Positions 14,448 to 48,150 of a stretch of DNA of 64,000 nucleotides are shown piece by piece. The stretch is from Triglochin maritima (taxonomy: Eukaryota; Streptophyta; Magnoliopsida; Alismatales; Juncaginaceae), in contig OY821786.1 in assembly GCA_963682175.1 (NCBI GenBank), forward strand, positions 36,511,501 to 36,575,500, given 5' to 3'. Positions within the stretch are counted from its first letter, which is position 1. Every line of letters starts with the position of its first letter. The translations under genes were made by a program, and so were the position numbers. Below the pieces are notes generated by a model. It saw only the letters and a list, made by a program, of their open reading frames with translations. It made no database searches and was not told the origin of the DNA.

Positions 14448-16358
14448 CGTAATATCCTAACCCTTGCTTAATGGTTTAATTGTTCTTAGGTGTTGGTTTT
14501 GAGAGGGTTGAGATGAACGACTGAGATCGATTGTGGGAAAAGTATTTAAGGTTTGGATTCATCTCTCTCACTCACTTTTTCTCTCACGTCTATCTCTCTC
14601 TCTCAAGCTTTTCTCATCCAGCTCGGGGAAGTCGTGGAGGCGAGATCGTCGACGCTTGGAGGAGCTCAGTTGGTTACCTGCGTCGACGTGATCGAATTCG
14701 TGGAGTTCACCGGAGAAGAAGGGCTTTGCGAGGAAGCGCTAGCCGTTGGTTCTTCAATGGCTTCTTCAAGCCTTGAGGTATGTCAAACTTGCTTTTACGC
14801 TCACCTATTATTAGTGTGGGGGTGAGAGCGGTCGATGGTAGGCCGAATGGCTCGTCGGACCTGCACAACAGTTTTTCTGCACTATAACGGTCGACCGGTG
14901 TTTTGGGTTCGGTCGACCGGTTATAGTGTATTTTGGGTGATATCCCTCGCACCAGTCGAACGATACCCTTGGGTGGTCGACCGATTGTGCAATTCGAGCG
15001 AGAGATGGAGGCTATGAGTACTTTCGGTCGGACGGGACCCCTTTGCCGGTCGACCGAAAGTACTATCATAGGTCGGTTTGGGCGTTGACCATCCAAACGG
15101 TCGACCGCCTGGTTGCCTCGTCCGACCAACGACTTAAGTTAACTTATTGACCGTTCGACCGTAAGTGTGGTTTCGGTCGACCGTGTAGTGTGGTTTGTCG
15201 AGGGGTTTTCACTGGTGGTTTTCGGTCGAACGGGGCCCCTTTGATGTTCGACCGGTTGTGCAGTTTGTTTGTTGTGTGTTCTGGCATCGACCATCCAAAC
15301 GGTCGACCGCCAATTGACCTTTGTTTGACCGTTGGGTCGTTATGTTCATTTTTGGTTCGACCGGTCTCTTAGACGGTAGAACTGTTGGTGTGCACTGGAG
15401 ATATCCGGTTGACCGTCGTTTCTTTTGCGGTCGACCGTTTCTGCCTGTTTTCTGTGTTTCGTGGTTTTGTGTGTACGCTTGAAGGTGACTCGTCTCTTCG
15501 CCCCCATTGGGCAACGGCACGGACTGTCGCCCGATAGTGGTGTGTGTGATTGATTGAAGGCGGCTCATCTCTCTGACCCCCTTGGGCAACAGCACGGACT
15601 GTCGGCCTGATATCTTGTGATTGTGTTTCCTTGTTGTTTGATGTGGTGGTTGTTTGACCGTGATTTGGACTGACGGTGCCTTGTGTGCACATGTGTTGGT
15701 AGGGTTGGGGTGAGAGGACCCTGAAGACTCTGTTGTGAAGTCGTGGCTCCGGCGAATGAGGCAAAACCGTGACTCCGACGAATGATGCAAAATCGTGGCC
15801 CCGATAACACTGAGGCAATAGTGTGGGTGTTTGGCCGTGATTTGGACCGGCGGTGCCTTGTGTGCACGTGTGTTGGTAAGGTTGGGGTGAGAGGACCCTT
15901 GAGACCCAGGTTGTTGTATCAGCTACGGCCGGGAGAGATGTCTCAGCAACTTAGTTGATGATGTTGTTGTGGTGGTTATTGTTCATTCCATGTTTCAATT
16001 GTTTGTCTTGTTCATTTATGTGTTAAGGTTTGGCATACAAAGTTTCCTTCTGGAAACTCAGTTATAGTCCATGTTTGCTTTTCAGACCGTGATCGACGTT
16101 AGAGGGTGGTGCCTGCGGAGGAGAGTTATTGGGACCAGATCCTGCTTTTCCTTGTTTTGAGGTTGTTGTGATTACATATGTATATTTTATCTTATAATTT
16201 TTGATGTAATAATCCTTTGTAGTAAATCAGATTTATATATTTGATATATGTGTTGGTGCACCTGGTGTTTCTCTTTGGTAATGTCATCAGTGATCTATTG
16301 TGGTATGTTTGTTATTCTTTAAAAAAATTAAAATTTCCGCTGTTTCGAGGACGTTTAC
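14448..16358 (+). mobile_element. Diverged solo LTR related to the Gypsy LTR
   Basis: The left end GTAATATCC and right end CCGCTGTTTCGAGGACGTTTAC match the ends of the Gypsy LTR at 19855-21816 read on the minus strand (TGTAATAACC and CCGCTGTTTTCGGGTACGTTACA-like). Length is similar (1.9 against 1.96 kb). Shared inner landmarks are a 'tggaaactcag' segment and a 'gtgattacatatgt' segment. No internal region adjoins and no target duplication survives, so it is an old solo LTR in the opposite orientation. It carries the paired CGGTCGACCG array at 14888-15437. Confidence 0.7.
14888..15437. repeat. Paired GTCGAC-palindrome array (solo LTR)
   Basis: Near-palindromic 10-mers centre at about 14892/14914, 14957/14978, 15029/15051, 15086/15102, 15156/15178, 15227/15249, 15288/15304, 15357/15378 and 15410/15432. 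Many are exact CGGTCGACCG. Within-pair spacing is mostly 21-22 bp; pairs recur every 53-72 bp. Confidence 0.85.
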
Positions 16359-17649
16359 TTATATATGGTTGCTAAGTTCCATTTATAGTTACAAATTTTA
16401 TTATCCAATACAATGCATTGATCTATTCTTTCTCGATTTCAGTTATATATAAACTAAACAATAATGCACAACATAAACATGAAACTAGATTATCAACTAT
16501 AAAGAAAAGAAACCATTTCAAAAGTACAAAACTTGTTTATTGATTCTCCACTTTAAAGAATATTACCATTTAACTAAGCTATAATGAAATTAGAACAAAA
16601 ACAAGAAAACCTCAATTACAAATGTTGATTTAGGTTTGGGAGAGGGATTAAGCGCCAAATCCCATTCTTCAACAGCTAATCAAGATTTAGTGGTTGATAT
16701 GAACAAAGCAAGCAAATCGAGGCCCGCAGCAAAAAATTGGAGCCCGATGCTTAAACACCGTCTAATCGATCGGTTAACGAGATCCCAAATCTTCAATTAG
16801 ATGCGTCTTTCAAAATTGAACTTCTCGCCAAAATTTATGATTACAAGTCAATTAAACAAACTCAAATAATGAAATAAGAGTAAGACTATTCAATTGCATG
16901 CTTTTCATGTTTACAAATTGAACCCCTCTAGTTTGTTTCTTCTAACATCCTATTCGTTTGGTGGAACCCTTCTTCATTTTCATCTTAAATAACAAGAACA
17001 TCAACAAAATCACAAATAACCATTTCAACCATAAAAAAGAAAAAGTTATGAATCACATGGTTACTTTTATTTCAATAAATAATCACATGATCTGAAAATT
17101 TATACGAGATGCCACCTTCGTCACCAACTGCTACGTTATTGTTTATATAATTTGACAGAGCCTACTTTTTATGGAACCACTAAAACAATAGTATGTATAA
17201 TTTAAATAAATACACACTTTGGCTACTATAACATAAATTTCACTATTTTAGTCCAATTGCTCAGACTTGGAGGCAGAATTTAATCAAAACATTATCAGAA
17301 GTGGTGGCACAAGGAAGTTTCCTTCAGAAAAAAGACGAAAAATCCAAAATTTGATATTCCAAGACAAAACAACAAAACCTGAGTAGTGGAAGACAAATGT
17401 GCTAAATGCAAGTAAAGGAAAATATTATGGATGGAACACATAACCACTATTTTGTTTTTCATGACTACAACGATGACAAGCATAAATCAAGAAATGATCC
17501 GTCACCAATAACTCCAAGACTCCAATGATAACTATTCGTCGGTGTAATCAATTTTTCTAGTAGTGAAAATTGAAAGTGACAACTTTCTTTTTCGTGTTTG
17601 CGAAATTGGACCATTGTTAGTTACCGTGACTTGAGAGTGATAGTAATCT
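16359..17649. other. Intergenic, no gene seen
   Basis: AT-rich sequence between the solo LTR and the RING-finger gene. I find neither a convincing coding region nor a recognisable element. Confidence 0.6.
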
Positions 17650-19849: not shown

Positions 19850-20629
19850 CTAACTGTAACGTACCCGAAAACAGCGGAAAATTTAAACAATAATAAAGAC
19901 CGTCAACGGTCAACACTGGGCACGTCACGGGAAATAAACCACATATATATATAAAATATATAAGGTACAGACCCACGTGGAAGTCAACTATACATACTAT
20001 ACCGACTGACTGTGATTACAACAAAAGCTATACAACATGTAATCACCTCAAAAGAAGAAGACAACTACAGGATCCGATCTCGGGGGCACCGTCCTCGGTC
20101 ACCACCTCAAACTCTAACCCTGCTCGCTACCTGAAATGCAAACAACAAACATGCCTGAGTTCCCTGAAGGAACCCCGTATACCAAACCTCCTAAAATATA
20201 AAAAGGAATTAAAGACAATGCAATGCTATGCACATGATCATCCGCCTCGGGCCCACAATAATGCCCTCACCGCCTCCGCGGCACTGAACCACTCCTGTCA
20301 CTAGGGTCAAGTCAGTCCACCGCTGCCTCACAAGGGTCAGTCGACACCACTGCTCCCCAAAAAGTGCAGGAAGGAACCCCCGGTACACGCCGCACCCAAG
20401 GAGCGAGTCAGCCCGCCGAATACACAACTCGGGTCAGACGACAGCCACTGCTCCCCCAAGAGTCGTCTAACGCGCACCCTGCCGGAACATCCTCGGCCTA
20501 CCGCTAAACCCTCGCAAACTGCCCAAGGTTTACGGTACACATCCCTCACACCCCGCTCGGTAAGAGAGGAAAAAGGTACAACAATAATACGCCTTCGTCG
20601 AAGGTGAAATCCGTAGCTCTCAAAGCCGG

Positions 20630-21347
20630 TAATCGACCGTCGCTTCGGAGCCGGTAGTCGACCTGACATCGACGGATCGCGTGTGGATAAATCCACCAAC
20701 CTGCGGTAGATCGGTCGACCGCTACAAGCACACCGGTCGACCGGTCCCCCACACAGTACACAGTACTGTACAAACAAATCTACCGGTCGAACCACGCCAA
20801 CCGAATTACCGACCAATCGGTCGAACAAAAGTCATCTAGCGGTCGACCGTTTGGAAGGTCTACGCTATACAATTTTATATAATATATATATCCGACCGGT
20901 CGAACCAAGGGGCCGTTCGACCGATAACAGGACTTTCAATATTTTGCCCAAGTCTCGTTCGGTCGACCGGAACTGAAATACAGTTCGACCGAAACAACAC
21001 AAGCACTCTACCGCTTAATTAAATGCTCAGTCGGTCGACCGAGAGTTAAAGAGCGGTCGACCGTTTTGATGGTCAAAGTTCCCAACCGACTTAGCATCGA
21101 ATGGATCGGTCGAACAAGGTAAAGGACGTTCGACCGTTTAATAAGTCAAAATCCCCAACCGACCCATTCTCATCGTTATTCGGTCGACCGGCTAAGTGGT
21201 CCCGTTCGACCGATAACAGTATATCCCCTTTTTCCCGCACAAATCTGGCATAACGGTCGACCGTCTAACGACATCGTTCGACCGTTCGCGGGTAAACAGC
21301 AATATAATAATAGGATCGGTCGACTGCCCACAGGCACCGGTCGACCG
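20630..21347. repeat. Paired GTCGAC-palindrome array (3' LTR)
   Basis: 10-mers of the CGGTCGACCG family centre at about 20634/20659, 20716/20738, 20788, 20822/20844, 20901/20918, 20964/20986, 21036/21058, 21111/21131, 21185/21207, 21258/21279 and 21321/21342. Most pairs are 20-22 bp apart and the last six recur every 63-75 bp. The 5' LTR carries the same array, offset by 6578 bp. Confidence 0.9.
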
Positions 21348-21626
21348 ATCGTCGTCTTCAACCTCTGAATTGGTTGAATTCCGACGGGGAATTCGACACC
21401 AACGTCGATCCCCAACACTCACAAGGCTTATGTGAGTTATATTGAAGATTTGGCATACCTTTTTGACGGTTGAAGAAGCCTCCCGAGCTTTGTCAACTTC
21501 TTCTCTTCTCTTTCCTTTCTTCTTCTTCTTCTTCTTCTCTCCTCCTTCTTCTTCTCCGAATATCTCCCTCACTCTCTGTTGATCAGCAAATGATGAAGAA
21601 AACGTTTTCAGCTAATCCTCACATCC

Positions 21627-21635
21627 CTATTTATA
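21627..21635 (-). promoter_or_regulatory. TATA box in the 3' LTR
   Basis: TATAAATAG on the minus strand, about 55 bp before the leader-frame ATG at 21572. The same box lies at 28205-28213 in the full 5' LTR and at 29687-29695 in the partial outer LTR. Confidence 0.65.
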
Positions 21636-21816
21636 CTAAAACCTAATCTTATCTCACCTCCCCATCCTCCAATCACCATCCACCTACAACCTTTCCAATA
21701 ATAACCAGCCAACACTCTCTCTCACCTCTCAACACCTCATGCTCTCCATGCAGGATTAATTAGGGTTAATTAGATTTAGGTTTAGTTAATTAAGATGTTT
21801 AGTTTAGGTTATTACA

Positions 21817-21831
21817 ATCTACCCTCCTTAA
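21817..21831 (-). other. Polypurine tract
   Basis: TTAAGGAGGGTAGAT on the minus strand abuts the 3' LTR start TGTAATAACC: the usual primer site for plus-strand DNA synthesis. Confidence 0.85.
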
Positions 21832-21866
21832 AAGAATTTCGTCCGCGAAATTCGAAGCAAACAGAC

Positions 21867-24800
21867 TTACCGGAATAACTCTGGATACTGCCTCCTGACA
21901 TCCTCCTCAATCTCCCAGGTAGCCTCTCTGTCAGTGTGATGCTGCCACCTGACCTTCACCATAGGAATCGCTCTCCTCCTGAGCTGGTGTACCATCTGAT
22001 CCACAATCTCAACTGGTCTCTCATCTAATGACAAATCCTGCTGGATCTCCGGTACTGATATCTCTATCACATGAGCTGGATCGGCCACGTACTTCCTCAA
22101 CATAGAAACATGGAAGACGTTGTGAAGTCCTGCGAACTGTGGCGGTAAAGCAATCCTATACGCCACCTCACCAATCCGATCCAATATCTCAAACGGTCCG
22201 ACATATCTCGGACTCAGCTTCCCCTTCTTCCCGAATCTCATCACTCCTCTGGAAGGCGAGATCTTCAGGAAGACATGATCTCCTACCTCAAAAGTCAGTT
22301 CACGCCTCCGCGTATCAGCATAACTCTTCTGCCTGCTCTGCGCCGTAGCTAGTCGTCTCCGAATCACGTCGACCTTCTCTGAATACAACTGGATAATGTC
22401 AGGTCCAACTAGCTGTCTCTCGCCCACATCACTCCAGCATACCGGCGATCTACACGGTCTCCCGTATAATGCCTCATAGGGTGCCATCCCAATACTCGAG
22501 TGGTAGCTGTTGTTGTAGGCGAACTCGATCAACGGCAAATGCTCATCCCAATGTCCTGCCCAGTCAAGTGTACACGCTCTCAGCATGTCCTCCAAAGTCT
22601 GTATCGTCCGCTCTGACTGGCCATCTGTCTGTGGGTGGAAAGCTGTGCTAAACTTCAGACGTGTCCCCAGTGCTCTGTGTAGACTCTCCCAAAATCTCGA
22701 AGTGAATCTGGGATCTCTGTCTGAAATGATACTGACTGGTACGCCATGAAGTCTGACAATCTCCTCAATATATAACTTAGCTAGACCCTCCAGAGCAAGA
22801 GTGGTCTTAATAGCTAAGAAATGTGCCGACTTGGTCAGTCGATCGACTATAACCCAAATCGCATCGTGGAATCTCCGTGTCTTCGGTAGCCCCGTAACAA
22901 AATCCATCGTCACGTGCTCCCACTTCCACTCGGGCAACTCAATCCTCTGCATCTGCCCTGCTGGTCTCTGGTGCTCGATCTTCACCTGCTGACAGACCAA
23001 ACACCTCGACACGAAGTCTGCAACGTCCTTCTTCATGCCTCGCCACCAGAAGTTCCGCTGCAGGTCTTTGTACATCTTGGTACTCCCTGGATGAATGGAA
23101 TATCTCGATCTGTGTGCCTCCTCCATGATATCATGTCTCAGGTCCTCTGTCTTTGGCACCCAGATACGGTCTCTGAATCTCAGACCTCCGTCCACTCCAA
23201 CTCTGAAGTCTGACCCATCTCTGGCAGCTAACTGTAACAAACTGCTCAACTCCTCATCTGTAGTCTGAGCACGAATCACTGCTGATACTGTCTGAGGCTC
23301 TACTCTCAATCCGGCAATCACTGCGCCCTCAGAGCTATCAGCAAATGGCCTCCACTCTGCCAAGGACTCTAGCAGTCTCCACTCCTGAATGCATAGGCCT
23401 GCTACTGATACTTCCACCTTCCGGCTCAAAGCGTCTGCAACTGTGTTCGCCTTCCCCGGATGGTAAGAGATAGTGAAGTCATAGTCCTTAATGAACTCAA
23501 GCCATCTGCGCTGCCTCATATTCAGCTCCTTCTGCGAGAACAGGTACTTCAAACTCTGATGATCTGTAAACACCTCGAACTGCTCGCCATAAAGATAGTG
23601 TCTCCAGGTCTTCAGTGCATGAACCACTGCTGCTAACTCCAAATCATGTGTCGGGTAATTCCTCTCATGGACCTTCAGCTGTCTGGATGCGTACGCGATC
23701 ACCCTCCCGTGCTGCATAAGTACACATCCTAAGCCAACACCTGAAGCGTCGCTATAAATCACAAATCCACCCGTGCCACTCGGCAATGATAAAACTGGTG
23801 CTGTGGTCAACAGTCTCTTCAGCTCCTGAAAGCTATCCTCGCACTTCTGCGACCAAACAAAAGTGACTCCCTTCTGCGTCAGAGCTGTCAGTGGTGCTGC
23901 CAATCTCGAGAAGTCTTTGATGAAGCGACGGTAATAACCCGCCAATCCAACAAAGCTCCTAATCTCCGTCACGCTCGTAGGGGTCCTCCACTGTGTCACC
24001 GCCTCTACCTTCGCCGGATCCACTGATATCCCCTCTGCCGATACAATGTGTCCGAGGAACGCCACTCTGTCCAACCAAAACTCGCACTTTGAGAACTTAG
24101 CATATAACTGCTGAGCCCTCAAGATGCTGAGTACAATCCTCAGATGCTCTCTGTGCTGCTCCACATCTGGTGAATAGATCAAGATGTCATCCACGAAGAC
24201 AATCACAAATATATCAATATACTGCCTGAATGTCCGGTGCATCAGATCCATGAACGCTGTCGGAGCATTCGTCAATCCAAATGGCATCACCAAGAACTCA
24301 TAGTGTCCATATCTCGTCCTGAAGGCTGTCTTCTGGATGTCCTCATCTCGGATCCTCAACTGGTGATATCCTGAACGCAGGTCAATCTTCGAGAAAACCT
24401 TCGCCGACTGCAGCTGGTCAAAGAGATCCTCGATCCTAGGTAAGGGATACCTATTCTTCACCGTCACCTGGTTCAGCATCCTGTAGTCTATGCACATCCT
24501 CAAGGATCCGTCCTTCTTCTTCACAAACAAAACTGGTGCACCCCAAGGCGAGACGCTCGGTCTGATAAATCCAGAGTCCATCAACTCCTGCAACTGCTTC
24601 TTCAACTCTGTCAACTCAGCAGGTGCCATCCGGTATGGAGCCTTCGACTGTGGTGTAGTGTCGGCTACCAACTCAATGCCGAACTCCAACTCCCGGTGTG
24701 GTGGTAATCCTGGAATCTCCGCCGGAAAAACATCCGCGAACTCCTGCACCACCTCAATGTCCTCTAGCCTCTGGGACTCTGCCTCCGCAACCACAAGTGT

Positions 24801-26309
24801 CGCCAGAAATGCTACACAACCCTGCTGTAACAGTCTCTGAGCTCTCACGGCAGATACAATAATGCGACCCCCTCTGCTTCTGATCCCTCTAATCAGAATA
24901 TCAGGCAAACCCTTTCTCGGGATCAAAATCTTCTTCTCACGGCACAAGACTCGAACATCATATTGGGACAGCCAATCCATCCCAAGTATGACATCAAAGT
25001 CCTCCATCGGTAGCAAGACCAGGTCTGCCGGAAACTCCTGATCTCCCGAAACAACCGTGGCGCCGGGGACAAATCTCCCCACAGTGCCCACCAGACCCAG
25101 GGGTGTGCTGACTTCCAAAGTGGCAGTCAACATCGCAAGGGTACAGCCCAACACTCCCGCAAATCGCTCTGAGATGAACGAGTGTGTCGCGCCACAATCA
25201 AATAACACCCTAGCTACTGAACCTGCGATAAGAAGTGTACCTTCCACGACAGCGCCTCCATCCCGAGCCTCCTCTGCCTGGATGGTGAAAACTCTGCCAG
25301 TGCGCTGCCCCTGCTGAGGTCTGAAAGGTGGTCTACCTCCGCCTCCTCCTCTGCCTGGTGCGGGTAAACCCGGTGGTCTGCTCGGCCCAGCTCCTCGGCT
25401 CGGACAGCTCCTGATAAAGTGACCCAGCTGGCCACAACCATGACATGCTCCGGGGGTGAAGCACGGCCCGGAGTGAAATCTCCCACAAGTACCACAAGGC
25501 TCAGGTCGTGGTACTGCAACTCCTGCTCCCTCGTACCGGGGCCTCTTGCCCGGATTCCCTCCAATCTGCCCTCCTGGCCTCCCAGAGAACCTACCTGATG
25601 GCCTCCTCTCATCCTGGTAGTTCTCCCTGTAGTCACGATCAAGAACAGAGGCACTCTTCACTGCATCGGCCAACGTGCTCGGCATGTGTGTCAGCACCTT
25701 CGTCCTCAGCTGCTTCCGGAGCCCCCGGACGAACTTCCCTACCCTCTGCTCCTGTGTAACATACATCTCGGGACAGTAACGCTCAAGGGCGTTGAACTTC
25801 CCGATGTAGCCTGCTAGGGTCATGTCTCCCTGCTAAAGACTCAGAAACTCCTCCCTCTTCTGATCCTGGACATGCTGCGGAAAATACTGCTCGTTGAACT
25901 CGCCAACGAACTCCTCCCAGGCTATATCATCTCTGTCCGCAAACACCACTGCAGATGTGGACCTCCACCAGTTGGACGCAGCACCGCCCAACACATAAGT
26001 AGCCAGGCCCACTCTCGCCTCTGGAGGACAACCAATAGCACTGAAAATCTTCTGCATAGTGAAGATCCACTCCTCCGCAGCCTCCGCGTCATACTGCCCC
26101 AGAAAGGTAGGCGGATGCTGGCGCATAAACCGGTCATGTATAGCGCCAGTCCCCGTCTGCCCAGTCTGTGCTGTCTGCTGCTGTAGCATCTCCATCAGAC
26201 GTCCGACCGTATCGAACAACGTCCGACGCTCATCCTCCCAAGCCTCATCCCTCGCAGTCTCACTCTCACCGCGAGTATGGGCAACCGCCTTCTCCCGTCT
26301 AGGAGGCAT
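21867..26309 (-). CDS. Gypsy gag-pol polyprotein, open except one in-frame TAG
   Basis: The frame runs from ATG 26309 ([12 protein letters not shown]) to TAA 21867, 1480 residues if TAG 25833-25835 is counted as an amino acid. It encodes capsid/nucleocapsid, protease, reverse transcriptase, RNase H and integrase for copy-and-paste movement. Gag motifs ([17 protein letters not shown]) precede the TAG. After it come a CCHC knuckle ([15 protein letters not shown]), protease [11 protein letters not shown] with FVDDILIY, RNase H with [10 protein letters not shown], an HHCC integrase finger ([14 protein letters not shown]), integrase acids in [15 protein letters not shown] and [14 protein letters not shown], and a chromodomain-like end ([25 protein letters not shown]) of the Tekay/Del type. 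The TAG replaces what is normally a glutamine in a LSLQQGDMT-like motif, so it looks like a CAG-to-TAG change; readthrough is possible. No frameshift was seen. Confidence 0.93.
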
Positions 26310-26417
26310 CTGCCAAAGGAAACAAGACAATATCAATATAATCTGTGCATGCATGATCCTCTAGACCTAACTCCTAACTCAAAGGTGGTTTCTTTGGACA
26401 AGTACGCCGAGATCAAC

Positions 26418-26429
26418 GCTCTGATACCA
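26418..26429 (-). other. Primer-binding site, tRNA-iMet
   Basis: TGGTATCAGAGC on the minus strand, three bases beyond the 5' LTR end, complements the 3' end of initiator tRNA-Met. Confidence 0.9.
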
Positions 26430-26432
26430 AAT

Positions 26433-28394
26433 TGTAACGTACCCGAAAACAGCGGAAAATTTAAACAATAATAAAGACCGTCAACGGTCAACACTGGGCA
26501 CGTCACGGGAAATAAACCACATATATATATAAAATATATAAGGTACAGACCCACGTGGAAGTCAACTATACATACTATACCGACTGACTGTGATTACAAC
26601 AAAAGCTATACAACATGTAATCACCTCAAAAGAAGAAGACAACTACAGGATCCGATCTCGGGGGCACCGTCCTCGGTCACCACCTCAAACTCTAACCCTG
26701 CTCGCTACCTGAAATGCAAACAACAAACATGCCTGAGTTCCCTGAAGGAACCCCGTATACCAAACCTCCTAAAATATAAAAAGGAATTAAAGACAATGCA
26801 ATGCTATGCACATGATCATCCGCCTCGGGCCCACAATAATGCCCTCACCGCCTCCGCGGCACTGAACCACTCCTGTCACTAGGGTCAAGTCAGTCCACCG
26901 CTGCCTCACAAGGGTCAGTCGACACCACTGCTCCCCAAAAAGTGCAGGAAGGAACCCCCGGTACACGCCGCACCCAAGGAGCGAGTCAGCCCGCCGAATA
27001 CACAACTCGGGTCAGACGACAGCCACTGCTCCCCCAAGAGTCGTCTAACGCGCACCCTGCCGGAACATCCTCGGCCTACCGCTAAACCCTCGCAAACTGC
27101 CCAAGGTTTACGGTACACATCCCTCACACCCCGCTCGGTAAGAGAGGAAAAAGGTACAACAATAATACGCCTTCGTCGAAGGTGAAATCCGTAGCTCTCA
27201 AAGCCGGTAATCGACCGTCGCTTCGGAGCCGGTAGTCGACCTGACATCGACGGATCGCGTGTGGATAAATCCACCAACCTGCGGTAGATCGGTCGACCGC
27301 TACAAGCACACCGGTCGACCGGTCCCCCACACAGTACACAGTACTGTACAAACAAATCTACCGGTCGAACCACGCCAACCGAATTACCGACCAATCGGTC
27401 GAACAAAAGTCATCTAGCGGTCGACCGTTTGGAAGGTCTACGCTATACAATTTTATATAATATATATATCCGACCGGTCGAACCAAGGGGCCGTTCGACC
27501 GATAACAGGACTTTCAATATTTTGCCCAAGTCTCGTTCGGTCGACCGGAACTGAAATACAGTTCGACCGAAACAACACAAGCACTCTACCGCTTAATTAA
27601 ATGCTCAGTCGGTCGACCGAGAGTTAAAGAGCGGTCGACCGTTTTGATGGTCAAAGTTCCCAACCGACTTAGCATCGAATGGATCGGTCGAACAAGGTAA
27701 AGGACGTTCGACCGTTTAATAAGTCAAAATCCCCAACCGACCCATTCTCATCGTTATTCGGTCGACCGGCTAAGTGGTCTCGTTCGACCGATAACAGTAT
27801 ATCCCCTTTTTCCCGCACAAATCTGGCATAACGGTCGACCGTCTAACGACATCGTTCGACCGTTCGCGGGTAAACAGCAATATAATAATAGGATCGGTCG
27901 ACTGCCCACAGGCACCGGTCGACCGATCGTCGTCTTCAACCTCTGAATTGGTTGAATTCCGACGGGGAATTCGACACCAACGTCGATCCCCAACACTCAC
28001 AAGGCTTATGTGAGTTATATTGAAGATTTGGCATACCTTTTTGACGGTTGAAGAAGCCTCCCGAGCTTTGTCAACTTCTTCTCTTCTCTTTCCTTTCTTC
28101 TTCTTCTTCTTCTTCTCTCCTCCTTCTTCTTCTCCGAATATCTCCCTCACTCTCTGTTGATCAGCAAATGATGAAGAAAACGTTTTCAGCTAATCCTCAC
28201 ATCCCTATTTATACTAAAACCTAATCTTATCTCACCTCCCCATCCTCCAATCACCATCCACCTACAACCTTTCCAATAATAACCAGCCAACACTCTCTCT
28301 CACCTCTCAACACCTCATGCTCTCCATGCAGGATTAATTAGGGTTAATTAGATTTAGGTTTAGTTAATTAAGATGTTTAGTTTAGGTTATTACA
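26433..28394 (-). repeat. 5' LTR of the complete Gypsy copy (shared middle LTR)
   Basis: A 1962-bp copy of the 19855-21816 LTR at a constant offset of 6578 bp. It is also the 3' LTR of the truncated outer copy, because a polypurine tract (28395-28409) abuts it too. The palindrome array recurs at about 27208-27925. Confidence 0.93.
27208..27925. repeat. Paired GTCGAC-palindrome array (middle LTR)
   Basis: Copy of the array at 20630-21347, with the same spacing and only one base change noticed in this part of the LTR (27780). Confidence 0.88.
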
Positions 28395-28444
28395 ATCTAC
28401 CCTCCTTAAAAGAATTTCGTCCGCGAAATTCGAAGCAAACAGAC

Positions 28445-29632
28445 TTACCGGAATAACTCTGGATACTGCCTCCTGACATCCTCCTCAATCTCCCAGGTAG
28501 CCTCTCTGTCAGTGTGATGCTGCCACCTGACCTTCACCATAGGAATCGCTCTCCTCCTGAGCTGGTGTACCATCTGATCCACAATCTCAACTGGTCTCTC
28601 ATCTAATGACAAATCCTGCTGGATCTCCGGTACTGATATCTCTATCACATGAGCTGGATCGGCCACGTACTTCCTCAACATAGAAACATGGAAGACGTTG
28701 TGAAGTCCTGCGAACTGTGGCGGTAAAGCAATCCTATACGCCACCTCACCAATCCGATCCAATATCTCAAACGGTCCGACATATCTCGGACTCAGCTTCC
28801 CCTTCTTCCCGAATCTCATCACTCCTCTGGAAGGCGAGATCTTCAGGAAGACATGATCTCCTACCTCAAAAGTCAGTTCACGCCTCCGCGTATCAGCATA
28901 ACTCTTCTGCCTGCTCTGCGCCGTAGCTAGTCGTCTCCGAATCACGTCGACCTTCTCTGAATACAACTGGATAATGTCAGGTCCAACTAGCTGTCTCTCG
29001 CCCACATCACTCCAGCATACCGGCGATCTACACGGTCTCCCGTATAATGCCTCATAGGGTGCCATCCCAATACTCGAGTGGTAGCTGTTGTTGTAGGCGA
29101 ACTCGATCAACGGCAAATGCTCATCCCAATGTCCTGCCCAGTCAAGTGTACACGCTCTCAGCATGTCCTCCAAAGTCTGTATCGTCCGCTCTGACTGGCC
29201 ATCTGTCTGTGGGTGGAAAGCTGTGCTAAACTTCAGACGTGTCCCCAGTGCTCTGTGTAGACTCTCCCAAAATCTCGAAGTGAATCTGGGATCTCTGTCT
29301 GAAATGATACTGACTGGTACGCCATGAAGTCTGACAATCTCCTCAATATATAACTTAGCTAGACCCTCCAGAGCAAGAGTGGTCTTAATAGCTAAGAAAT
29401 GTGCCGACTTGGTCAGTCGATCGACTATAACCCAAATCGCATCGTGGAATCTCCGTGTCTTCGGTAGCCCCGTAACAAAATCCATCGTCACGTGAGTTAT
29501 ATTGAAGATTTGGCATACCTTTTTGACGGTTGAAGAAGCCTCCCGAGCTTTGTCAACTTCTTCTCTTCTCTTTCCTTTCTTCTTCTTCTTCTTCTTCTCT
29601 CCTCCTTCTTCTTCTCCGAATATCTCCCTCAC
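28445..29632 (-). CDS. Chimeric LTR-leader / integrase-core frame
   Basis: A 395-codon frame created by the deletion. Residues 1 to about 47 come from the LTR leader frame ([12 protein letters not shown], then [13 protein letters not shown]) and are fused in frame to integrase from [10 protein letters not shown] to the chromodomain-like end. All three catalytic acids of the DDE core are kept. The HHCC finger, RNase H, RT, protease and Gag are gone. The junction lies at 29492-29494, where LTR and internal sequence share GTG. The retained LTR piece keeps its TATA box about 55 bp upstream of the ATG, so the frame has a potential promoter. The lysine run resembles a nuclear localisation signal. 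Expression and activity are unproven; it may be a by-product of the deletion. Confidence 0.75.
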
Positions 29633-29876
29633 TCTCTGTTGATCAGCAAATGATGAAGAAAACGTTTTCAGCTAATCCTCACATCCCTATTTATACTAAA
29701 ACCTAATCTTATCTCACCTCCCCATCCTCCAATCACCATCCACCTACAACCTTTCCAATAATAACCAGCCAACACTCTCTCTCACCTCTCAACACCTCAT
29801 GCTCTCCATGCAGGATTAATTAGGGTTAATTAGATTTAGGTTTAGTTAATTAAGATGTTTAGTTTAGGTTATTACA
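29492..29876 (-). repeat. Partial outer LTR (U3 and start of transcribed region)
   Basis: The first 385 bp of the LTR (minus strand TGTAATAACC to the GTG junction), identical by eye to 21432-21816. It lacks the palindrome array and the LTR 3' end, so no primer-binding site adjoins it. TATA box at 29687-29695. Confidence 0.9.
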
Positions 29877-31138
29877 CTAACGGACTTGACTTACTTACCT
29901 ACCATCTAGTCAACTAGTACTACTGGAGCAATGACTGCAAAATTCCTAATCAATCAACTAATGAGCCAAGCCTAATCTAAAGCTAATAATTTGTATTGGT
30001 TAATTTAATATGTCCAAGGAGTACATGCGAACATGGGTGAAACTTACAAGGCCAAGGAGTACGTAGTTGGTCATCTTATAGATCATGAGTACATGATGAT
30101 TACAAGACCTTGGTGTATTTAAAACAAATTAGAGTTCATTAATTTATCATGTTGATGTTATCTCCTCTTCCTCTCTCTCTCCTCCTCCAACACCAAACTC
30201 TGTCCTCTCTCTCCTCCCCCCTCCGTAGGCACCGGTCCAGGAGAGTTGAAACTCAACCTGCAGTCAAAAGACTTCTTGTATCACGAACGATGCTCCGATT
30301 CTTTTCTGTTGTATTCGTAAATGTAGATCACTAGTATGTATGATTGCCCCCACACTTCTGTTGTTTATTGCTAACACTTTGACAAAAGTAATGTAGGTGA
30401 AAGATTAACTTGATAAGACATGGCAAATAAATGACACACAAAGGTAGAAACTTGGTCTCCTAATATGAGTGGCAGAGAAATTGCTTTAAAGAGGAACTTT
30501 CATTACATAATATTATCATGTAGTTGTCCCAATGTGTTTCATATGTTCTTTGTCGTACTATTCCATTCTAACCATTCATTACCCACGAATAAGAAATTGA
30601 CCTAAATAGGTGAAGAGGAAGATGTTACGATTTAATGGTCACAAATGTAAAGCGTCACCGACCGAAATGACTATAAGGTAAACTTCTATTAACCTAATAT
30701 ATTTTAGTAGTTAATTAAATTAAAACAATTCGTGGGATCTCAACAATCTTGCTAAACGTATACTCTTAGTTTTGTTGCGTGAGGATCTTCAATTCTTTAT
30801 AGTCTAATTTTATATCGGAAATTGCAATCAAACAACAGTGGTAGAATTTGTCTCTACGTATTTTTAGGTGGAAAATAGTTTTTTTCTTATATTTGTTCAG
30901 GACCATCTTAATTCTTGGAAAAAAACACATTCCATGCAAATATTATGTTTCTCATTGTAGAAAATCAACACACATTTCGGAAACATATGTTTTCAACACA
31001 CCGGGCTGTGAACACGTAATTCGAGAATTCCAATGGAACTTCAAATGGAGGAATATAAAATTTTAGAATTTACAAACAACATGGTATCGTTTTCTTATTT
31101 AAATAAATTTCATTTTTTTAAAAAACCAATTTTTAAAA
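29877..31138. other. Right flank of the insertion, then non-coding sequence
   Basis: 29877-30040 is the continuation of the duplicated host sequence. Beyond it is AT-rich DNA with a CT-rich patch (30161-30222) and no supported gene. Confidence 0.65.
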
Positions 31139-33378: not shown

Positions 33379-35000
33379 CGTAACATCCCGGAACAGCGAA
33401 TTTTTTTGAAATTTTAACAAATATAAGATCTCAAGATAACGACAATCAAACGGGAATGTTACTCATAATATTAATCAGTCGGTGCACCAAATACAACAGA
33501 GTTTGTTAAAACGCATGATTACATCAATACAATGAAAGACGTGTACATGTAATCATGACGACCTCGAATAGTCCGTAGAGAATCCTGACCCCGAAATGTG
33601 TGTGCCTGCTCTCAACAGAACCTATTGTGGTCCTGAAACATGAGTTAAACAATAATACCTGAGTTTCCCATTTGGAAACCCCGTATGCCAAGTTCACATA
33701 TATGAATGCAACAATATGTTAATGAACTTATCATACTAGTAACATGTCATGTCATCAACGACAATGAAAACAGATCCCCTCCAAGGGTAAAACAGGACCA
33801 CAGTCCTACAACATCATCAAACACCATCTAAGGGTCAATAATGACATATGTCCAACAACAACATCGGGTCTCCCTCGGAGACCTACCGTAGGCACATACA
33901 GTCTTACAGACAATACACAACGCACCCCCACACACGACTACTCTAGCCAGGGGATCAGTGAGCAGCGTCCGCACTTCCGCGCCAAAAGAATCATATCTGA
34001 AACATCGTGGTCTACACCACACCAACGGAGTTGTCGCCCGGTCGGTCCAACAATCACTCAATAGGTACCCAGCTGAGGTATCATCACCGGAACAACATCG
34101 GCGACATCGATGATACAACATTGGTGGTACAACATACGTCCTGCACAACATCGAACAACACAATGTCATCGCTGGAACAACATCGGCGGCGTCAAGTTGT
34201 AACATCGTCGACAACACCATCGCCGACACATCCTCGGCGGCATCACCGACACAACATCGGTGGTACAACATACGCCCGACACAACATCAGACGATTCTGG
34301 ACCGTAGTCCGCAATGTCATCATGCTCCAAGAGTCATGCATCATCATGCATCGAGATCCCTGATCCCTCAGGTATGCTACTCTACTGTGAGTCAAGACAA
34401 CAATACATCATGTCACAATCTATCAACAGAGGTGACTCGTCCCAAGTACCCACACTCTTCCACTCGGCGGTCCCTGGGCAGGCGCGATCAACACACCCAC
34501 CGTCACCTCCTCGCTCACGCACTAGGTGAGGACACATGTTTCCGTGAACAGAGTTGGCACTTCACTAGGATCGGAAATTCAGTTCTGTACACAAACGGTT
34601 GACCAAAATAGGCACTCCAGTCGACCATTCCCATGGGGTCCGGTGTTGTTCGACCGATGTTGGTTTAAGTCGGGCAAAAATACACTGAACCGGTCGACCG
34701 AAAACCGACAGACACCCGACCTGTCAGGTATCTCTTGCTGCCCTCGTTGCCGACGAGGTCTCCGACCATCTGACGACGATCAAAATCACACCCACAAGTG
34801 TGAGCAAAAGAAAACACTATTGAACTGGCATACCTCTCGAGTTCGACGGAACACGTCGGAGATCACTCAACGTCGCCACCCGACCGCAACCTCTGAACGC
34901 CCGATCTGCTCGCTTCACACCCTGCCTTGCTCACCTCACATCGACGCCGCCTCCTCCACCTCTAGATCGCCGAAGAAAGGAAGAAGAATGTGAGAGAGAT
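33379..35000 (-). mobile_element. Degenerate Gypsy-type LTR
   Basis: CGTAACATCCCGGAACAGCG at the left matches the Gypsy LTR terminus (TGTAACGTACCCGAAAACAG). Further shared landmarks are a 'catgtaatca' segment, a 'cctgagtttccc..aaccccgtat' segment and a CCGGTCGACCG motif at about 34690. Two long stop-free stretches here arise from CATCG/ACAACATCGG repeats, not genes. The right border is unclear. Confidence 0.6.
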
Positions 35001-35284: not shown

Positions 35285-37111
35285 GGGAACTACTAAACGT
35301 CACCCCAAAACTACTTAAATCGTCCATTGAAATTACCAAATTGCCCTTAACAATATATTTAATACAAATTTCGTCCCGTGTCTTTAAACAAGGTGTTTGA
35401 CTCAGTTTTACTCACATTCCTAGTACCAACACCACGAAAATGTTTGGCGACACACCTGGATCCAGCTAGGTAACGGAGGCGGATTTTTTTTTCCGACTCG
35501 GGCGTCTGGCTAAGACGCCTACACCATGGTGGATGCGTCTTAGCCAGACGCCTATACCAAGGTGGAGGCGTCTGGCTAAGACGCCTCCACATAGGTGGAG
35601 GCGTGCTTGCTAGACGCCCGTATTTTTTTAATAATAAAAAATTGAAAATTAAATATAAATAAATTTTTAAAAATATACGGTGTGTTATCTTAAATTATTT
35701 GAGGTTCTGTTGCAAGATTTTCGGTGGTAACGAGGTCAAATTACAATGAGTTTTTTTGCAAGTGATTAATATTCAAAAATTTCAAGATCAAAGATCCCTG
35801 GTGGTAAAACTTCCCGACTTACAAATACCACATCGACAGGTCGTTCGGGGGTCTCGTTTGGATTTTGAAATTGTTGGATCTGGAAATTTTTGAATGTTCA
35901 TCACTTGCAAAAACTCATTGTAAGGTGAGATGTCGGACGGTCGATCGTTTGCTTCTCGGTCTACCGAACATGTTCCATGTGGATGACCGAGTTTCCATCA
36001 GTCCACCGTGATCGTAAAGACAGTAAGTTTTTGATCTTCCTAGAATCATTGGGTCGGTTTACTGATCTCTACCCAATCATCCGAATATTTATTCTCAGTA
36101 GCTTCGACATTTCTCTGGAAATATCTATTCAGTGTACTGAAGGGGTATCGGTCATCCGAATATAGTAATTATTAACTTATTAATTAATTTATCAATTATC
36201 TAAATTTATAATAAATTATCTTTTTAATAAAAAAATATTAAAAATTACGGGCGTCTGACGGAGGCGCCCCGCGTAGTTGATGGGTGTCTTCGCCAGACGC
36301 CCCCCCCCCCCCCCATGGGCGGGGCGTCTGGGTAAAACTAGACCTGTCAATTGGGTCGTGTTCGTGTACTATCGTGTCTGACAGTTCTGCATTCGTGTCA
36401 GGATTTCGTGTTATCGTGTATAGTATAAATTGAAAAGATTTCATCATGTTTAGATTGAAAATAGTTAAGTGACATGTTATATTGATATTTTTCATTCTAA
36501 ATAACATCTTAATTGACTATAATCAAGTAAAAACAATTGATTATCTAACAAAAGATGCAGTTCGTGTCTGTTTCGTGTACAAAAATAACTTATCGTGTGT
36601 ATCGTGTCGTGTTCGTGTCAAATCGTGTACCAATTATTTTATATTTATATGTTCACAAAACATTGTAATAAATCATTTCAATCATACAAAAAATTTCGTG
36701 TAAAATCGTGTATATATCGTGTCTCCTTATCGTGTCGTGTCCGTGTCGTGTAATCGTGTCGTGTCCAAAATTGACAGGTCTAGGTAAAACACCCCCAATG
36801 GGGGAGGCGTCTTACCCAGACGCCCCTCTCCTACGCGGGGCGGCTCCGTCGGACGCACGCAATTTTTATTATTTATTATTATTATTTTATTAAAAAGATG
36901 TTGGATATTTTACCAGATTCGAGTACACCGGGGCGTCCGTTGGCTCATTACTGACCTCCAAAACATTATTTTTTATGATTATAAGAGGAAGATGAAGAGA
37001 GATGTGTGATAGGAGAGTAAAATGTCGCGTTATAGCAGTAGAAATTAGAGAATGATAAAATGGTAATATGTTGGAACGATTTAAGTAGTTTTAGGATGAG
37101 CGGCAGTTCAC
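35285..37111. mobile_element. Mutator-like non-autonomous element with GCGTCT palindromes
   Basis: The inverted ends GGGAACTACTAAACGTCACC and GTGAACTGCCGCTCATCC (reverse strand) continue inward with CAAAACTACTTAAATCGT / TAAAACTACTTAAATCGT. Flanks GGAAAAAAA and AAAAAAAAA could be a 9-bp duplication. The interior has GC-rich palindromes GGCGTCTGGCTAAGACGCC near 35503-35625 and related blocks at 36249-36331 and 36806-36855. A run of 15 C lies at 36300-36314. hAT element 2 is nested inside. Confidence 0.72.
36339..36782. mobile_element. Non-autonomous hAT element 2, nested
   Basis: TIRs TAGACCTGTCAAT and ATTGACAGGTCTA with a perfect 8-bp duplication GGTAAAAC (36331-36338 and 36783-36790). The body is rich in TCGTGT/CGTGTCGTG motifs like element 1, to which it is clearly related. 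It sits inside a GCGTCTGGGTAAAAC block of the Mutator-like element, so it is the younger insertion. Confidence 0.92.
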
Positions 37112-38618: not shown

Positions 38619-39899
38619 CTGGGGGTTGTCCGGTCGGAAAGTGAGGGAAATGAAAACGAATCTAGATCCAGTTGGTTACGAAAAGGGAGTTGTTTGTGCA
38701 CATTAAGAAATTTTCAATCAGATTCCGTTGTGTATACAATTTTTTTTTGAGTTTTCTCACCGTTTTGAAAGGAATGTGTTCTGAAAGTTTTACTTTTATA
38801 TGGCAATTGTTATGAATTGGATGTGCAAACATTTTGTTCTTTGATTATGATATTCATCTTTTGGAAGTGTTAAGGAAGAGACGCATGGTCATTAACCGTA
38901 GAGCTCTAAAAAATAATAATTTACAATAAATCAAAAGTTATTCACAATCATGGTAATTAACATGGAACATTAATTACCGAGATAAGATTGTCGTGTTGGT
39001 CATCGATTCTTGTAGCTCTACAAATAATTGACGACACGAGTATATAAAAGAGGAAAAAATTATTTTTGTATATTGAATAAATATAACAAGTAAAACAATA
39101 TGGAATTGTGTTTGATGTCATTAATGTTTTATTGTGTCTTGATATGAGACTTATATCTTTTCACTCAAGAAATGCTTAATTTGATTATTGTCAAAAATTA
39201 TCAATGAGTATAGTGATAAAGACAATAGTTGGTTGAACATGACTTGTGCTGGAAAAGATAGCTAGTCAAACGATTATCATTGTCACTCTTAATTGAGTGA
39301 TCATATTAGTGAGCTCATTGATAGAGCAAAATTATAATGTTCACAATGTAACTTGAGTTAAGTTACATAGTTATAATTAGCTTAAAAGAGATCAAGAAAT
39401 GAATGTAATACAAAGGTGACGCATTTCTACTTTGTATATATTCTTAATATCATGAGGCAATGGACGGACACAAGTGGTGCACTTACATTACTAAATGGAT
39501 CGTGTTTCGTTCGAGTGGAACAAAGACATTTATGTTAATTGGGTAACTATAATGTGTAGCTAGATACCGCTTATAGTTTGAGATATTAAGTGTTTAATAT
39601 TGCGGCCAATTTGGTTTAGATCCTCTTATAGGCCACACCGCAAAACTGAGAAATAAGAAGCTTGATTTTGAATTCATCTGATGTGTAGGGTTTCATGTGA
39701 AAAAGGGACACATGTGGTGAATCAATAAAATCAATATGTCATGAGAATTGACATAATTAGAATTATGGATAAATTCATATAAGGTGTATATATTATGAGG
39801 TGTAATAATTTAATATTACATATGATAATATATTGGAATTTGCTAAAAACCCCAAAAGGTCAAATTTTGTAGATATAAATCCAAAATTTTACAAAGGCA

Positions 39900-40750
39900 A
39901 AATCGGGGTCAGGACAGTAAATCGTTTAGGGTTCGGTCGACCGAGGTGTCTTTGGAACGGTCAACCGAACGGGGAACGGATAAACACAATTGCTTGACCG
40001 AAATTGTCTGGAGTGCCTAAACAATTGTGTTCGGTCAACCAAGCGTGAACGGTTAACCGAGAGAAAATATCCAGGAGCTATTTTGGAATGTTTTCGGTAG
40101 ACCAAAGGTGACACGGTTGTCCAATGAGATTCGACCAGGAGAAATTTTGGTGAGTCAACGGACGACCGGAGAAGATGCGGATCGTCCGAATTTTTCCAGA
40201 GAATTTTTCTCATGTATATTCGGTCTACCGTCTAGCTCACGGTCAACCGAACGTGTGTTAAAACTGAATGGTTCAGTTAACCGAGAAAAATTCTCGGTTA
40301 ACCGAACAATGCGATTTTTGCCTGAATTATTAAGAGAATAATTAGATCATGGGTTGGATTAATTCCAGATTTGATCAAACATTTTTTAGGATCTTATGTG
40401 GCAATTTGAGATTAATTTTAGGAGAGAATAAGCAAGAGATCATGACTAAAGAATAGTTCTTGATAATGATATTTTGGGAGCCTATAAAAGGACCTCTCAT
40501 CCTACTTGTTTAGGTAAATGCATAAATTTTCTCTCATTAATCTTTACCTTAATCACCACGAAAATCTCTTAATAGTTTTATGTTTTGGAGATAGAAAACT
40601 CAGGAGCTTAAAGATGGGTTAATTAGAGATTGATTGACTAACTCATTTCTCTCTAATATGGTTTAGAGTTTTGTGAACACTTGGAGGTGAATCGGCGAGC
40701 GATTCGAAGAGCAACGAAACTCCGGATCTTCTGAAATGTTTTAGAGAACC
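39900..40750 (+). mobile_element. Degenerate LTR-like region with GGTCAACCG pairs
   Basis: Near-palindromes CGGTCGACCG/CGGTCAACCG/CGGTTAACCG centre at 39938/39962, 40036/40054, 40099/40118, 40225/40244 and 40278/40299. They are followed by a TATA-like CCTATAAAAGG at about 40480 and a leader-like segment. This is the order seen in LTRs (array, TATA, transcript start), but no borders were found. Confidence 0.5.
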
Positions 40751-46319: not shown

Positions 46320-48150
46320 ATTCTGTCCCGCCAAAATTCAGTAAACCAGACCTTTCACGGTCAACCAAAACATTTTTAGTTCGGTCCACTAAACATCTAT
46401 CAGACAACTGAATCATACCCATCAATAGATGATAGGATGCTCTCTGGAATTGTCCTAACGACTTTCGGTCAATCGAATAGCCTTGGACCATTTTTAGACT
46501 TTGCTCCAATGGTCACATTTGAATCGAGTCATTAGAGCCTAATTGATTTGTCATAATTCGGACAACTGAATGTATATCGGTCAACCGAGTCCTTCATGGC
46601 TTGGCGTCCAACGACTATTAGCACGTGACACTTGATCGTTGCACCCAACGACTATTTGAGCCTTAACTGTCAGCGCAAAACCCGAACTAACTTTGGTCTA
46701 CCGAATTATACACGGTTAACCATGAAGGACTTATGGTATGTGACTTTAGCACTACACTAAAAGCAATTGTTATTAGTGAGGGGACAACTTCCAATATAGT
46801 CAATTCTCAGGTAGTACAGAGCCCCAAAGTAAGCGTCGGGTGGACATGAGTGCCGACGAGTAGGGCGGTTAAGCACCTAGGCCTTTAGGCCCACGAGCCA
46901 TAATAAGATTGCTTGGCAACAACCCCCATATATACAGGTGGTCCCATAACCACCAAGGAATTTGCTAGTATCCCATAACCCCAACAATCCCCCCCAAGTT
47001 CCTTTCCTGCGCGGGACGTGACTCGAACTCGAGACCTCGCTCTGATACCGAATGAAAGACTTATGACATGTGACTTTACCACTACAATAAAAGTAATTAT
47101 TGTTAGTGAGGGGTCACTTCCAATATAGTCCATTCCCAGGCAGTGCAGAGCCCCAAACTAAGTGTCGGGTGGACATGAGGGACTGCACGTTGGTGCCAAC
47201 GAGTCTGACAATTAAGCACATAGGCTTTTAGGCCTACGAGACATAGTAAGAGATTGCTTGACAACAACCCCCATCTATACGGGTGGTCTCATTACCACCA
47301 AGGAATTTGTTGGGGTCCCATAACCCCAACACACCGAACTTGAGTAATCAGAGCTCAAACAATCTTATTGTCCACATTGGAACGGTGAACCGAATTCTAA
47401 CTGAAATTAAACAGGGTTAAATTGAAAATAGTTACTGGAAGTTGGTGAACGGTAATCTGAAGTATATTCGGTCAACCGAGTGCTTATATATGACCAATTC
47501 ATTTGTAGTGTCTCGGACTACCGTTACATAAACAGTCAACCAAACCACGTCTAAATTCTACCCAAGCTTTAAGCAAATCTTTGCTTCTCATTGGTTCATT
47601 TCTTCACCAACTCCCAACTGCTCTCTAAGCTTTGAAGCCTATATAAACACCACTCAAGAGACACAAAAATGACTTCTACGCACTCAATTCATCTATACTC
47701 TTTGGGCTCTCATTTCCCGAACCTTCAAAGCTCCAAATACACTCAAAGATTCATCTTCATCACTTGCATATCCATTTCATATCAATATCCAAGTATGCTC
47801 AAGTTAGAGTGTTAGTTAGATTGTGATTCAACTTTCAAATCCAAGAATCACCAAAGAGTTGTAAAACTTCGAGGAAGCTCCCTCTCGGGTTGTGAGAGGA
47901 GACGAGCAATGAGAGGATTGTTCGCGAGGCTCGGTGTTGTAAACGACGTTGATCTCAGTCTGAAACAGAGATCGGTTAGTAGAACCATAAGCGAGGCTAG
48001 AGGGATCAAGCGAAGCTTGCGAGGAGGACTAGGACCGGGGTGCAGTGTCGAACCTCTCTAAACTCCGGTGTCGACGATTTTTGTGATTTGCATTGTCTTC
48101 TCCCTTAATCCCTCAATTATCGTTTTAATTCTGCAATTAGTTTAGTGATT
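46320..48150 (+). mobile_element. Degenerate LTR-like region with GGTCAACCG motifs
   Basis: Motifs CGGTCAACC, TCGGTCCACTA, CGGTCAACCGAG and CGGTTAACC recur from 46357 to 47530. A TATA-like CTATATAAACACC (about 47640) and a GC-richer leader (47870-48060) follow, ending near a CTCTAAACTCCGGTGTCGACG segment. The order resembles a U3-R-U5 LTR. No coding internal region, and borders are unclear. A TRIM is inserted at 46723-47331. Confidence 0.5.
46723..47331 (-). mobile_element. TRIM (terminal-repeat retrotransposon in miniature)
   Basis: Two direct repeats, 46723-46986 and 47053-47331, begin TGAAGGACTTATG / TGAAAGACTTATG and end CATAACCCCAACA. Only 66 bp separate them. On the minus strand, the segment after the 5' LTR reads TTCGGTATCAGAGCGAGG, a one-mismatch tRNA-iMet primer site, and GGAACTTGGGGGGGAT before the 3' LTR is a polypurine tract. 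No coding capacity, so it depends on other elements. The target duplication is not clear: TAACC on the left, ACACC on the right. Confidence 0.8.

Follow-up and report, generated by a model that had tools for sequence, protein, structure and literature searches.

An array of paired CGGT-N2-ACCG palindromes in Gypsy and Copia LTRs of Triglochin maritima, a candidate protein-binding platform

The window, that is, the whole stretch of 64,000 nucleotides of Triglochin maritima DNA that was analysed, contains a Gypsy retrotransposon (element A) whose two LTRs carry a dense array of short palindromes. The element has the following features.

19855..21816, minus strand: 3' LTR of Gypsy element A, 1962 bp with TG...CA ends
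20712..21347, minus strand: array of paired CGGTCGACCG-like decamers, nine pairs and a single site at 20784
20712/20734, 20818/20840, 20897/20914, 20960/20982, 21032/21054: array pairs 1 to 5
21107/21127, 21181/21203, 21254/21275, 21317/21338: array pairs 6 to 9
21867..25832, minus strand: open reading frame of 1321 aa (P0001) with part of gag, protease, RT, RNase H and integrase
26433..28394, minus strand: partner LTR of A, with the same array at 27290-27925

The two LTRs are 99.949% identical and we therefore take family A to have been active recently. A PBS-like sequence, TGGTATCAGAG, adjoins the partner LTR on its 26432 side. In the open reading frame the Pfam domains of RT and RNase H precede the integrase, which is the Gypsy order. 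An earlier sequence-only reading had spoken of a recent Gypsy LTR, and both the LTR pair and the pol gene agree with this description. A may belong to a Tekay/Del-like lineage, its C-terminus seeming to resemble the Tekay/Del domain; a chromodomain is not among the 12 Pfam families listed for the open reading frame. The gag-pol frame is the sole reading frame of at least 200 aa within 19855-28394; shorter or spliced genes might still be present. When the genome itself was searched with a query of 718 bases, the best 40 of 2542 candidates were all full-length matches at 99-100%.

Element A is part of a compound insertion at 19850-29881. It consists of the LTR at 19855-21816, the internal part, the LTR at 26433-28394, a second copy of the pol end running to about 29494 and a 385-bp LTR piece (29492-29876), and it is bounded by copies of the target site CTAAC at 19850-19854 and 29877-29881. 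This arrangement could be explained by an unequal exchange and a subsequent deletion.

Between 20630 and 21347 there are 20 matches to CGGTCGACCG with at most two mismatches, compared with 1.17 in 300 shuffles (sd 1.04, maximum 6). Eight pairs of sites have their starts 20-22 bp apart, compared with 1.58 in 2000 random placements (sd 1.16, maximum 7). At the same mismatch threshold the 64-kb window holds 94 matches where 7.29 are expected (maximum 14 in 100 shuffles). Thus, the palindromes are not randomly placed, as had been claimed before, and the six pairs of centres quoted with that claim (20964/20986, 21036/21058, 21111/21131, 21185/21207, 21258/21279 and 21321/21342) are correct in their coordinates. 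The count needs a slight correction: of about 21 decamers 20 are found at this threshold, and the sites at 20630 and 20655 each have three mismatches. Within the nine assigned pairs the spacings are 22, 22, 17, 22, 22, 20, 22, 21 and 21 bp. The proposed spacing of 20-22 bp, about two helical turns, is therefore right except for one pair of the nine with 17 bp. The eight intervals from pair start to pair start are 106, 79, 63, 72, 75, 74, 73 and 63 bp; six of them fall into the proposed range of 63-75 bp and the two longest do not. Along the array, sites pair at about 21-22 bp and the pairs mostly lie 41-57 bp apart.

The same pairs are very abundant in the genome. Exact CGGTCGACCG pairs with a gap of 9-14 bp occur 89,122 times in 1.06 Gb, which is 89% of the 100,280 exact pairs with gaps of 0-30 bp; these are 6 of the 31 possible gaps, so that uniform placement would give 19%. 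The reversed pattern of the pair has no match genome-wide, and the chance expectation for exact pairs is about 0.0002 with the base composition of the window. Among the 100 matches listed for gaps of 0-30 bp, which lie within roughly the first 0.8 Mb of contig C1 and include some families repeatedly, the start-to-start spacing is 22 bp in 48, 21 in 14, 19 in 9, 20 in 7, 23 and 25 in 5 each, 18 and 24 in 3 each, 31-33 in 5 and 40 in 1, with none at 10-17, 26-30 or 34-39 bp. The peak near 21-22 bp is kept in other families and across the genome; its loss there would have counted against the earlier reading. We regard it as confirmed that the palindrome array is a real, strongly non-random and genome-wide feature.

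Longer distances show some order as well. Pairs with gaps of 31-60 bp number 95,235 genome-wide, and among the 100 listed the spacings peak at 50-54 bp (45 of 100) and 64 bp (14); some of these spans enclose a third site. We further collected 88 adjacent spacings of at most 80 bp from one copy each of A, B, L071, L070, L072, L075 and L040 (seven families or subfamilies, see below). They give R = 0.47 at a period of 10.5 bp with phase 0.0 (0.48 at 10.25). For the 43 spacings of at least 28 bp R is 0.35 at 10.5 and 0.37 at 9.5 and 10, hence not specific for 10.5 bp. The two-turn pairing is thus firm, and helical phasing beyond the pairs is no more than suggested. The idea that all sites lie on one face of the DNA accordingly holds for the two turns within a pair and receives modest support between pairs (about 51 bp). 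The two-turn spacing also supports the earlier view that the geometry is compatible with binding of a dimeric protein. A nucleosome- or condensate-organising element had been named as the alternative. Parts of A, B and the LTR-like locus L072 do have a regular pair period of about 64-73 bp, but this period is not a nucleosome repeat and for such a role the sequence specificity of the decamer would be superfluous. We consider this explanation very improbable indeed.

The array can be compared with that of a second, more diverged family in the window.

14888..15437, plus strand: array of family B, in a diverged LTR at about 14449-16366
14777/14778 and 16085/16086, plus strand: predicted splice donor and acceptor of family B

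Family B is probably related to A, judging from the similarity of the LTRs. A third LTR-like locus, L071, is akin to A (93% over 1075 bp). A coding region was seen in neither B nor L071. In the array A and B agree at 0.89 of the decamer positions (n=185) and at 0.55 of the positions outside (n=490), with 0.45 for a reversed-sequence control; when the motif columns are taken from A alone the values are 0.90 and 0.54. The agreement is 0.89 in decamers and 0.73 outside for A and L071, and 0.79 and 0.49 for B and L071. Elsewhere the alignment of A and B is close to random (U3/exon 1 0.50, 3' half of the intron 0.48). Thus, the sites are better kept than the intervening DNA.

The positions of the sites are also kept to some extent. 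Counted from the predicted splice donor, the first six sites of A have offsets of 111, 132, 174, 195, 246 and 268 bp, and those of B 110, 132, 175, 196, 247 and 269 bp, that is, within 1 bp of A. Three of the 20 sites of A have no aligned base in B. In the alignment of A and L071 the first pairs are out of register (111 in A against 186 in L071), and both have a pair at 111-112/132. We also collected 29 copies of B with the array as query, a sample in which swaps of the array are invisible. In eight of them (L014, L025, L031, L032 and L035-L038) U3/exon 1 is different (0.50-0.54 identity) and the arrays are at 0.84-0.91; in another copy, L030, the identity in U3/exon 1 is 0.37 and the LTR start is probably missing. 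In the B copies the spacing is conserved to about the same degree between pairs as within them. Part of its constancy may therefore be plain descent, and the indel rate gave no information on whether the spacing in B is constrained.

Could the array be a by-product without function, left by a unit of 64-73 bp that slipped or underwent unequal crossing-over again and again? Some neighbouring units of A and B have common flank sequence by eye, and in L072 the periods of the pairs alternate between 73 and 64 bp. The unit flanks contain 0.38-0.50 bits per column, slightly more than the random level of 0.28 (sd 0.04), so that some tandem ancestry is likely. The site columns, however, contain 1.5-1.85 bits, and the agreement between A and B is concentrated in the decamers. 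We therefore reject plain tandem duplication as the whole explanation; a 73-bp unit with equal conservation outside the palindromes, the case against the earlier reading, is not what A and B display. Moreover, the CpGs of the motif are better kept in the 29 B copies (0.915) than the other CpGs of the region (0.844) or those elsewhere (0.797), and site and spacing are common to different classes of elements. Taken as a complete account, the by-product is improbable.

The place of the array within the LTR of A is defined by a TATA-like sequence and by predicted splice sites.

21626..21635, minus strand: TATA-like box TATAAATAGG, at about LTR position 182, upstream of the array, a putative promoter element
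21453..21464, minus strand: predicted splice donor AAAAAG/GTATGC, last exon base 21459, first intron base 21458
20131..21458, minus strand: predicted leader intron of 1328 bp, enclosing the whole array
20125..20142, minus strand: predicted splice acceptor TTTGCATTTCAG/GTAGCG, last intron base 20131, first exon base 20130

With LTR positions counted from 21816 down to 19855, the order in the sense of transcription is LTR start, TATAAATAGG (about 182), donor (358), array (470-1105) and acceptor (1687). The donor is the only AG/GTATG or AG/GTAAG on the minus strand of the LTR. Further TATA-like matches occur within the array and close to the end of the LTR, so that TATAAATAGG is a putative promoter of A. 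B and L071 have predicted splice sites matching those of A, with predicted introns of 1308 and 1369 bp. Past the assumed start there are no ATGs in exon 1, 13 in the intron and 3 in exon 2 of A (13 of 16 intronic); the corresponding numbers are 1, 18 and 5 for B and 0, 17 and 1 for L071 (to the end of the locus). Of the 29 B copies, 25 retain the donor GTATG, 26 the acceptor YAG and 22 both sites; the TATA-like sequence is not kept in all of them. We thus predict a leader intron in A, B and L071. A reverse-transcribed spliced copy as proof of splicing was not obtained: a genome search for joined exon ends gave no match at up to two mismatches. The absence of such a copy fits with packaging of the unspliced RNA and equally fits with no splicing. 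In the open-licence literature we found no report of leader introns in plant Gypsy elements.

Further sites in the window belong to a different class of element or to short clusters.

39934..40304, plus strand: array of family C, in an LTR at about 38765-40919, with the sites CGGTCGACCG, CGGTCAACCG, CGGTTAACCG and others in pairs at 18-24 bp
34596..34700, plus strand: short site cluster
35938..36008, plus strand: short degenerate site cluster, two pairs at 19 bp
46358..47542, plus strand: scattered degenerate site pairs, four at 19-24 bp

About 1.5 kb downstream of the LTR of another C copy (L069 beside L046) Copia gag, integrase and RVT_2 are encoded, and family C is therefore a Copia family. 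In the C copy L040 the array precedes a TATA-like sequence. Likewise, in the LTR-like loci L070, L072, L074 and L075 a TATA-like box follows the array at a distance of about 60-180 bp. As far as such boxes can be recognised from sequence, the layout known from Sireviruses, with the array before the TATA box, thus exists in the genome beside the layout of A with the array after it. No assignable open reading frame was found in L076 and L078, which lie near L070, L075 and L072. L077, beyond L075, has pieces of a Copia-like reading frame by eye and a CGGTCGACCG pair at L077:1892-1922, which lies beside a Copia-integrase-like piece and outside any recognised LTR. The LTR flanks of L070 and L073 are 81-84% alike with those of C and L040; the array block in these two loci uses CGGTCGACCG and is unalignable to that of C. 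The pattern of alike flanks with different motif dialects looks as if the array had been replaced as a module.

Three tandem repeats of the window may be mentioned here. At 35501-35618 the consensus unit of a 33-bp repeat has the palindrome GGCGTCTTGCAAGACGCC and forms a differing palindrome array. A 22-bp repeat with 26 copies lies at 842-1418, with a related array at about 470-579, and a 72-bp repeat with 5.7 copies at 44340-44750 adjoins an open reading frame with a plant transposon protein domain.

The site itself is CGGT-N2-ACCG with CG as the commonest centre. CGGTNNACCG pairs occur 133,544 times genome-wide, compared with 2,683 for the reversed control. Two thirds of them have CG in both centres and one third has at least one non-CG centre; among the 100 listed pairs the latter number 26. 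Of the 32 variant centres in these listed pairs 26 are not self-complementary. This pattern fits with two contacts, CGGT and ACCG, round a freer centre and not with a base-paired stem.

The variant centres also bear on a reading by which the clustered CpGs themselves are the functional element, either read by methyl-CpG binding or demethylation factors or kept as an unmethylated CpG island. The CpG o/e is 1.34 in the predicted intron of A with the array (GC 0.52), in contrast to 0.17 in the assumed U3, and in Sireviruses similar palindrome clusters define CpG islands (Bousios et al. 2010, PMC2829016). CpG density leaves unexplained, however, why GT and AC are fixed, why the site is palindromic and paired at 22 bp and why the reversed pattern is absent. 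Furthermore, pairing persists in sites whose centre is CA, TA or AG and which therefore have no central CpG. We consider this reading unlikely.

The main rival is an element acting at the level of RNA. The transcribed palindromes could form hairpins or pair between RNAs, and could serve as a source of small RNAs or as a dimerisation or packaging signal which is spliced out of the mRNA. With the TATA-like box as promoter, the array would be in the 5' leader of the unspliced RNA. For the sense RNA of 20700-21350 the folding is better than that of shuffled sequences (z -6.8, none of 20 shuffles as good), but good folding is expected of any array of palindromes. In the array of A the half-sites CGGT/ACCG have no mismatch on the outer and 13 on the inner side of the pairs, as would be expected at the loop end of a stem. 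Clustered LTR palindromes are also common to the Sireviruses of maize, where they show an excess of small RNAs and are read as secondary structure or small-RNA source (PMC10760457, citing Bousios 2016); the pairs found here, in contrast, are unlike hairpin arms. Self-complementarity of the spacers does not exceed chance in the 46 distinct spacers clustered from the 100 listed pairs, and we have discarded a hairpin extending through the spacer. Nor do the sites of a pair show compensating changes: complementary centres were found in none of the 26 variant pairs among the 100 listed, only six of which vary in both sites. The family C pair at 40159/40179 is a single case that looks compensatory by eye. 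Short loops should be stable, yet they are rare, with a gap of 8 bp in 3 of 100 listed pairs and none below. Finally, the array of L040 lies before its TATA-like sequence. In our view an RNA-level element is a doubtful explanation, though the likeliest of the rivals.

We favour instead that the array is a cis-acting platform for a homodimeric nuclear protein which binds cooperatively on the pairs, and we would give this reading a probability of roughly 0.6 on the sequence data. Binding might proceed as follows. Each CGGT-N2-ACCG decamer would be occupied by a homodimeric nuclear protein, with a half-site for each subunit. Cooperative binding would then arise between two dimers that lie on one face of the helix. 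Once filled, the array could maintain transcription of the element, as an enhancer or anti-silencing platform that tolerates different positions. Position tolerance is seen in the arrangement after the TATA box in A and before a TATA-like box in L040, L070, L072, L074 and L075. In the Gypsy-type families the intronic array would act on the promoter, and splicing would remove the array and most of the upstream ATGs from the gag mRNA. Unrelated elements of the genome would rely on one factor, and a host protein seems likelier than a self-encoded one. A symmetric dimer alone does not predict the inner-only mismatches of A. Such an asymmetry is strong in family A only and is no general rule: the outer and inner half-site mismatches are 7 and 11 in B and 5 and 4 in C, without clear asymmetry. 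LBD, WRKY, MYB and MBD7 types were considered as the binding factor, and none seems to fit well enough to be named.

A more far-reaching version of the platform is conceivable, and we put it forward tentatively, as it may well turn out to be wrong. One dimeric protein, probably of the host, would read helically phased CGGT-N2-ACCG pairs throughout the genome and would serve Gypsy and Copia elements, though unrelated, as their common activator or anti-silencing factor. Blocks of the array would be acquired or swapped as modules, into the leader intron in Gypsy and before the promoter in Copia elements, and the dialects CGGTCGACCG and CGGTYAACCG would change inside one related group of Copia LTRs.

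A comparable case is that of the Su(Hw) sites of the Drosophila gypsy element, where repeated binding sites for a host protein lie within the transcribed leader region of an LTR element. They are alike in this position; the motif differs and there is no paired palindrome.

Closest to the array are the repeated motifs of Sireviruses, palindromes clustered in the LTR nearly all of which have a CGG-CCG core, with eight or more copies in each element (Bousios et al. 2010, PMC2829016). The motif of the Vitis Sirevirus is exactly CGGTCGACCG (Table 3 therein), and Sireviruses of distant plants have a nearly identical motif. The array of A shares the CGG-CCG palindrome, the high copy number (20 sites), the very decamer of the Vitis element and the character of a CpG island, as judged by CpG o/e and GC content. 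In contrast, the Sirevirus motifs have a Copia host and lie upstream of the TATA box, whereas A is a Gypsy element, with RT before integrase, and its array lies downstream of TATAAATAGG in the predicted intron. The motif was stated to be absent from classic retrotransposons, and a common binding site for a single factor was not identified (PMC2829016). In the accessible text of the same paper we found no mention of pair spacing.

The VANC proteins are a case in which arrays of short motifs are bound by a sequence-specific protein (PMC5735166). Their target arrays are likewise dense; in the transposable elements concerned, the VANDAL elements, they occupy introns as well as upstream regions, and they turn over fast between relatives. 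Unlike these targets, which have one orientation and are bound by the element's own VANC, the site of A is palindromic and common to unrelated classes of elements, and A lacks an extra protein reading frame of at least 200 aa.

The earlier reading knew of no description of such an array in Tekay/Del LTRs. The kind of array is already known, as it is of the type of the CGG-CCG palindromic repeated motifs of Sireviruses. For Tekay/Del LTRs, on the other hand, we found no description of such arrays in the open-licence literature, and the accessible text of PMC6911290, PMC11963269, PMC3735527 and PMC12016029 contains nothing on them. New are thus the Gypsy host, the predicted intronic position, the two-turn pairing and the use common to Gypsy and Copia elements.

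If the genome-wide reading is true, tens of thousands of retrotransposon copies from two superfamilies would depend on one regulatory factor, and this factor could be retrieved with a single short DNA probe; the rule of pair spacing is a sharp experimental handle. The purpose of the Sirevirus palindromes would then become directly testable, and the recurrence of one palindrome in distant plants would be easier to understand.
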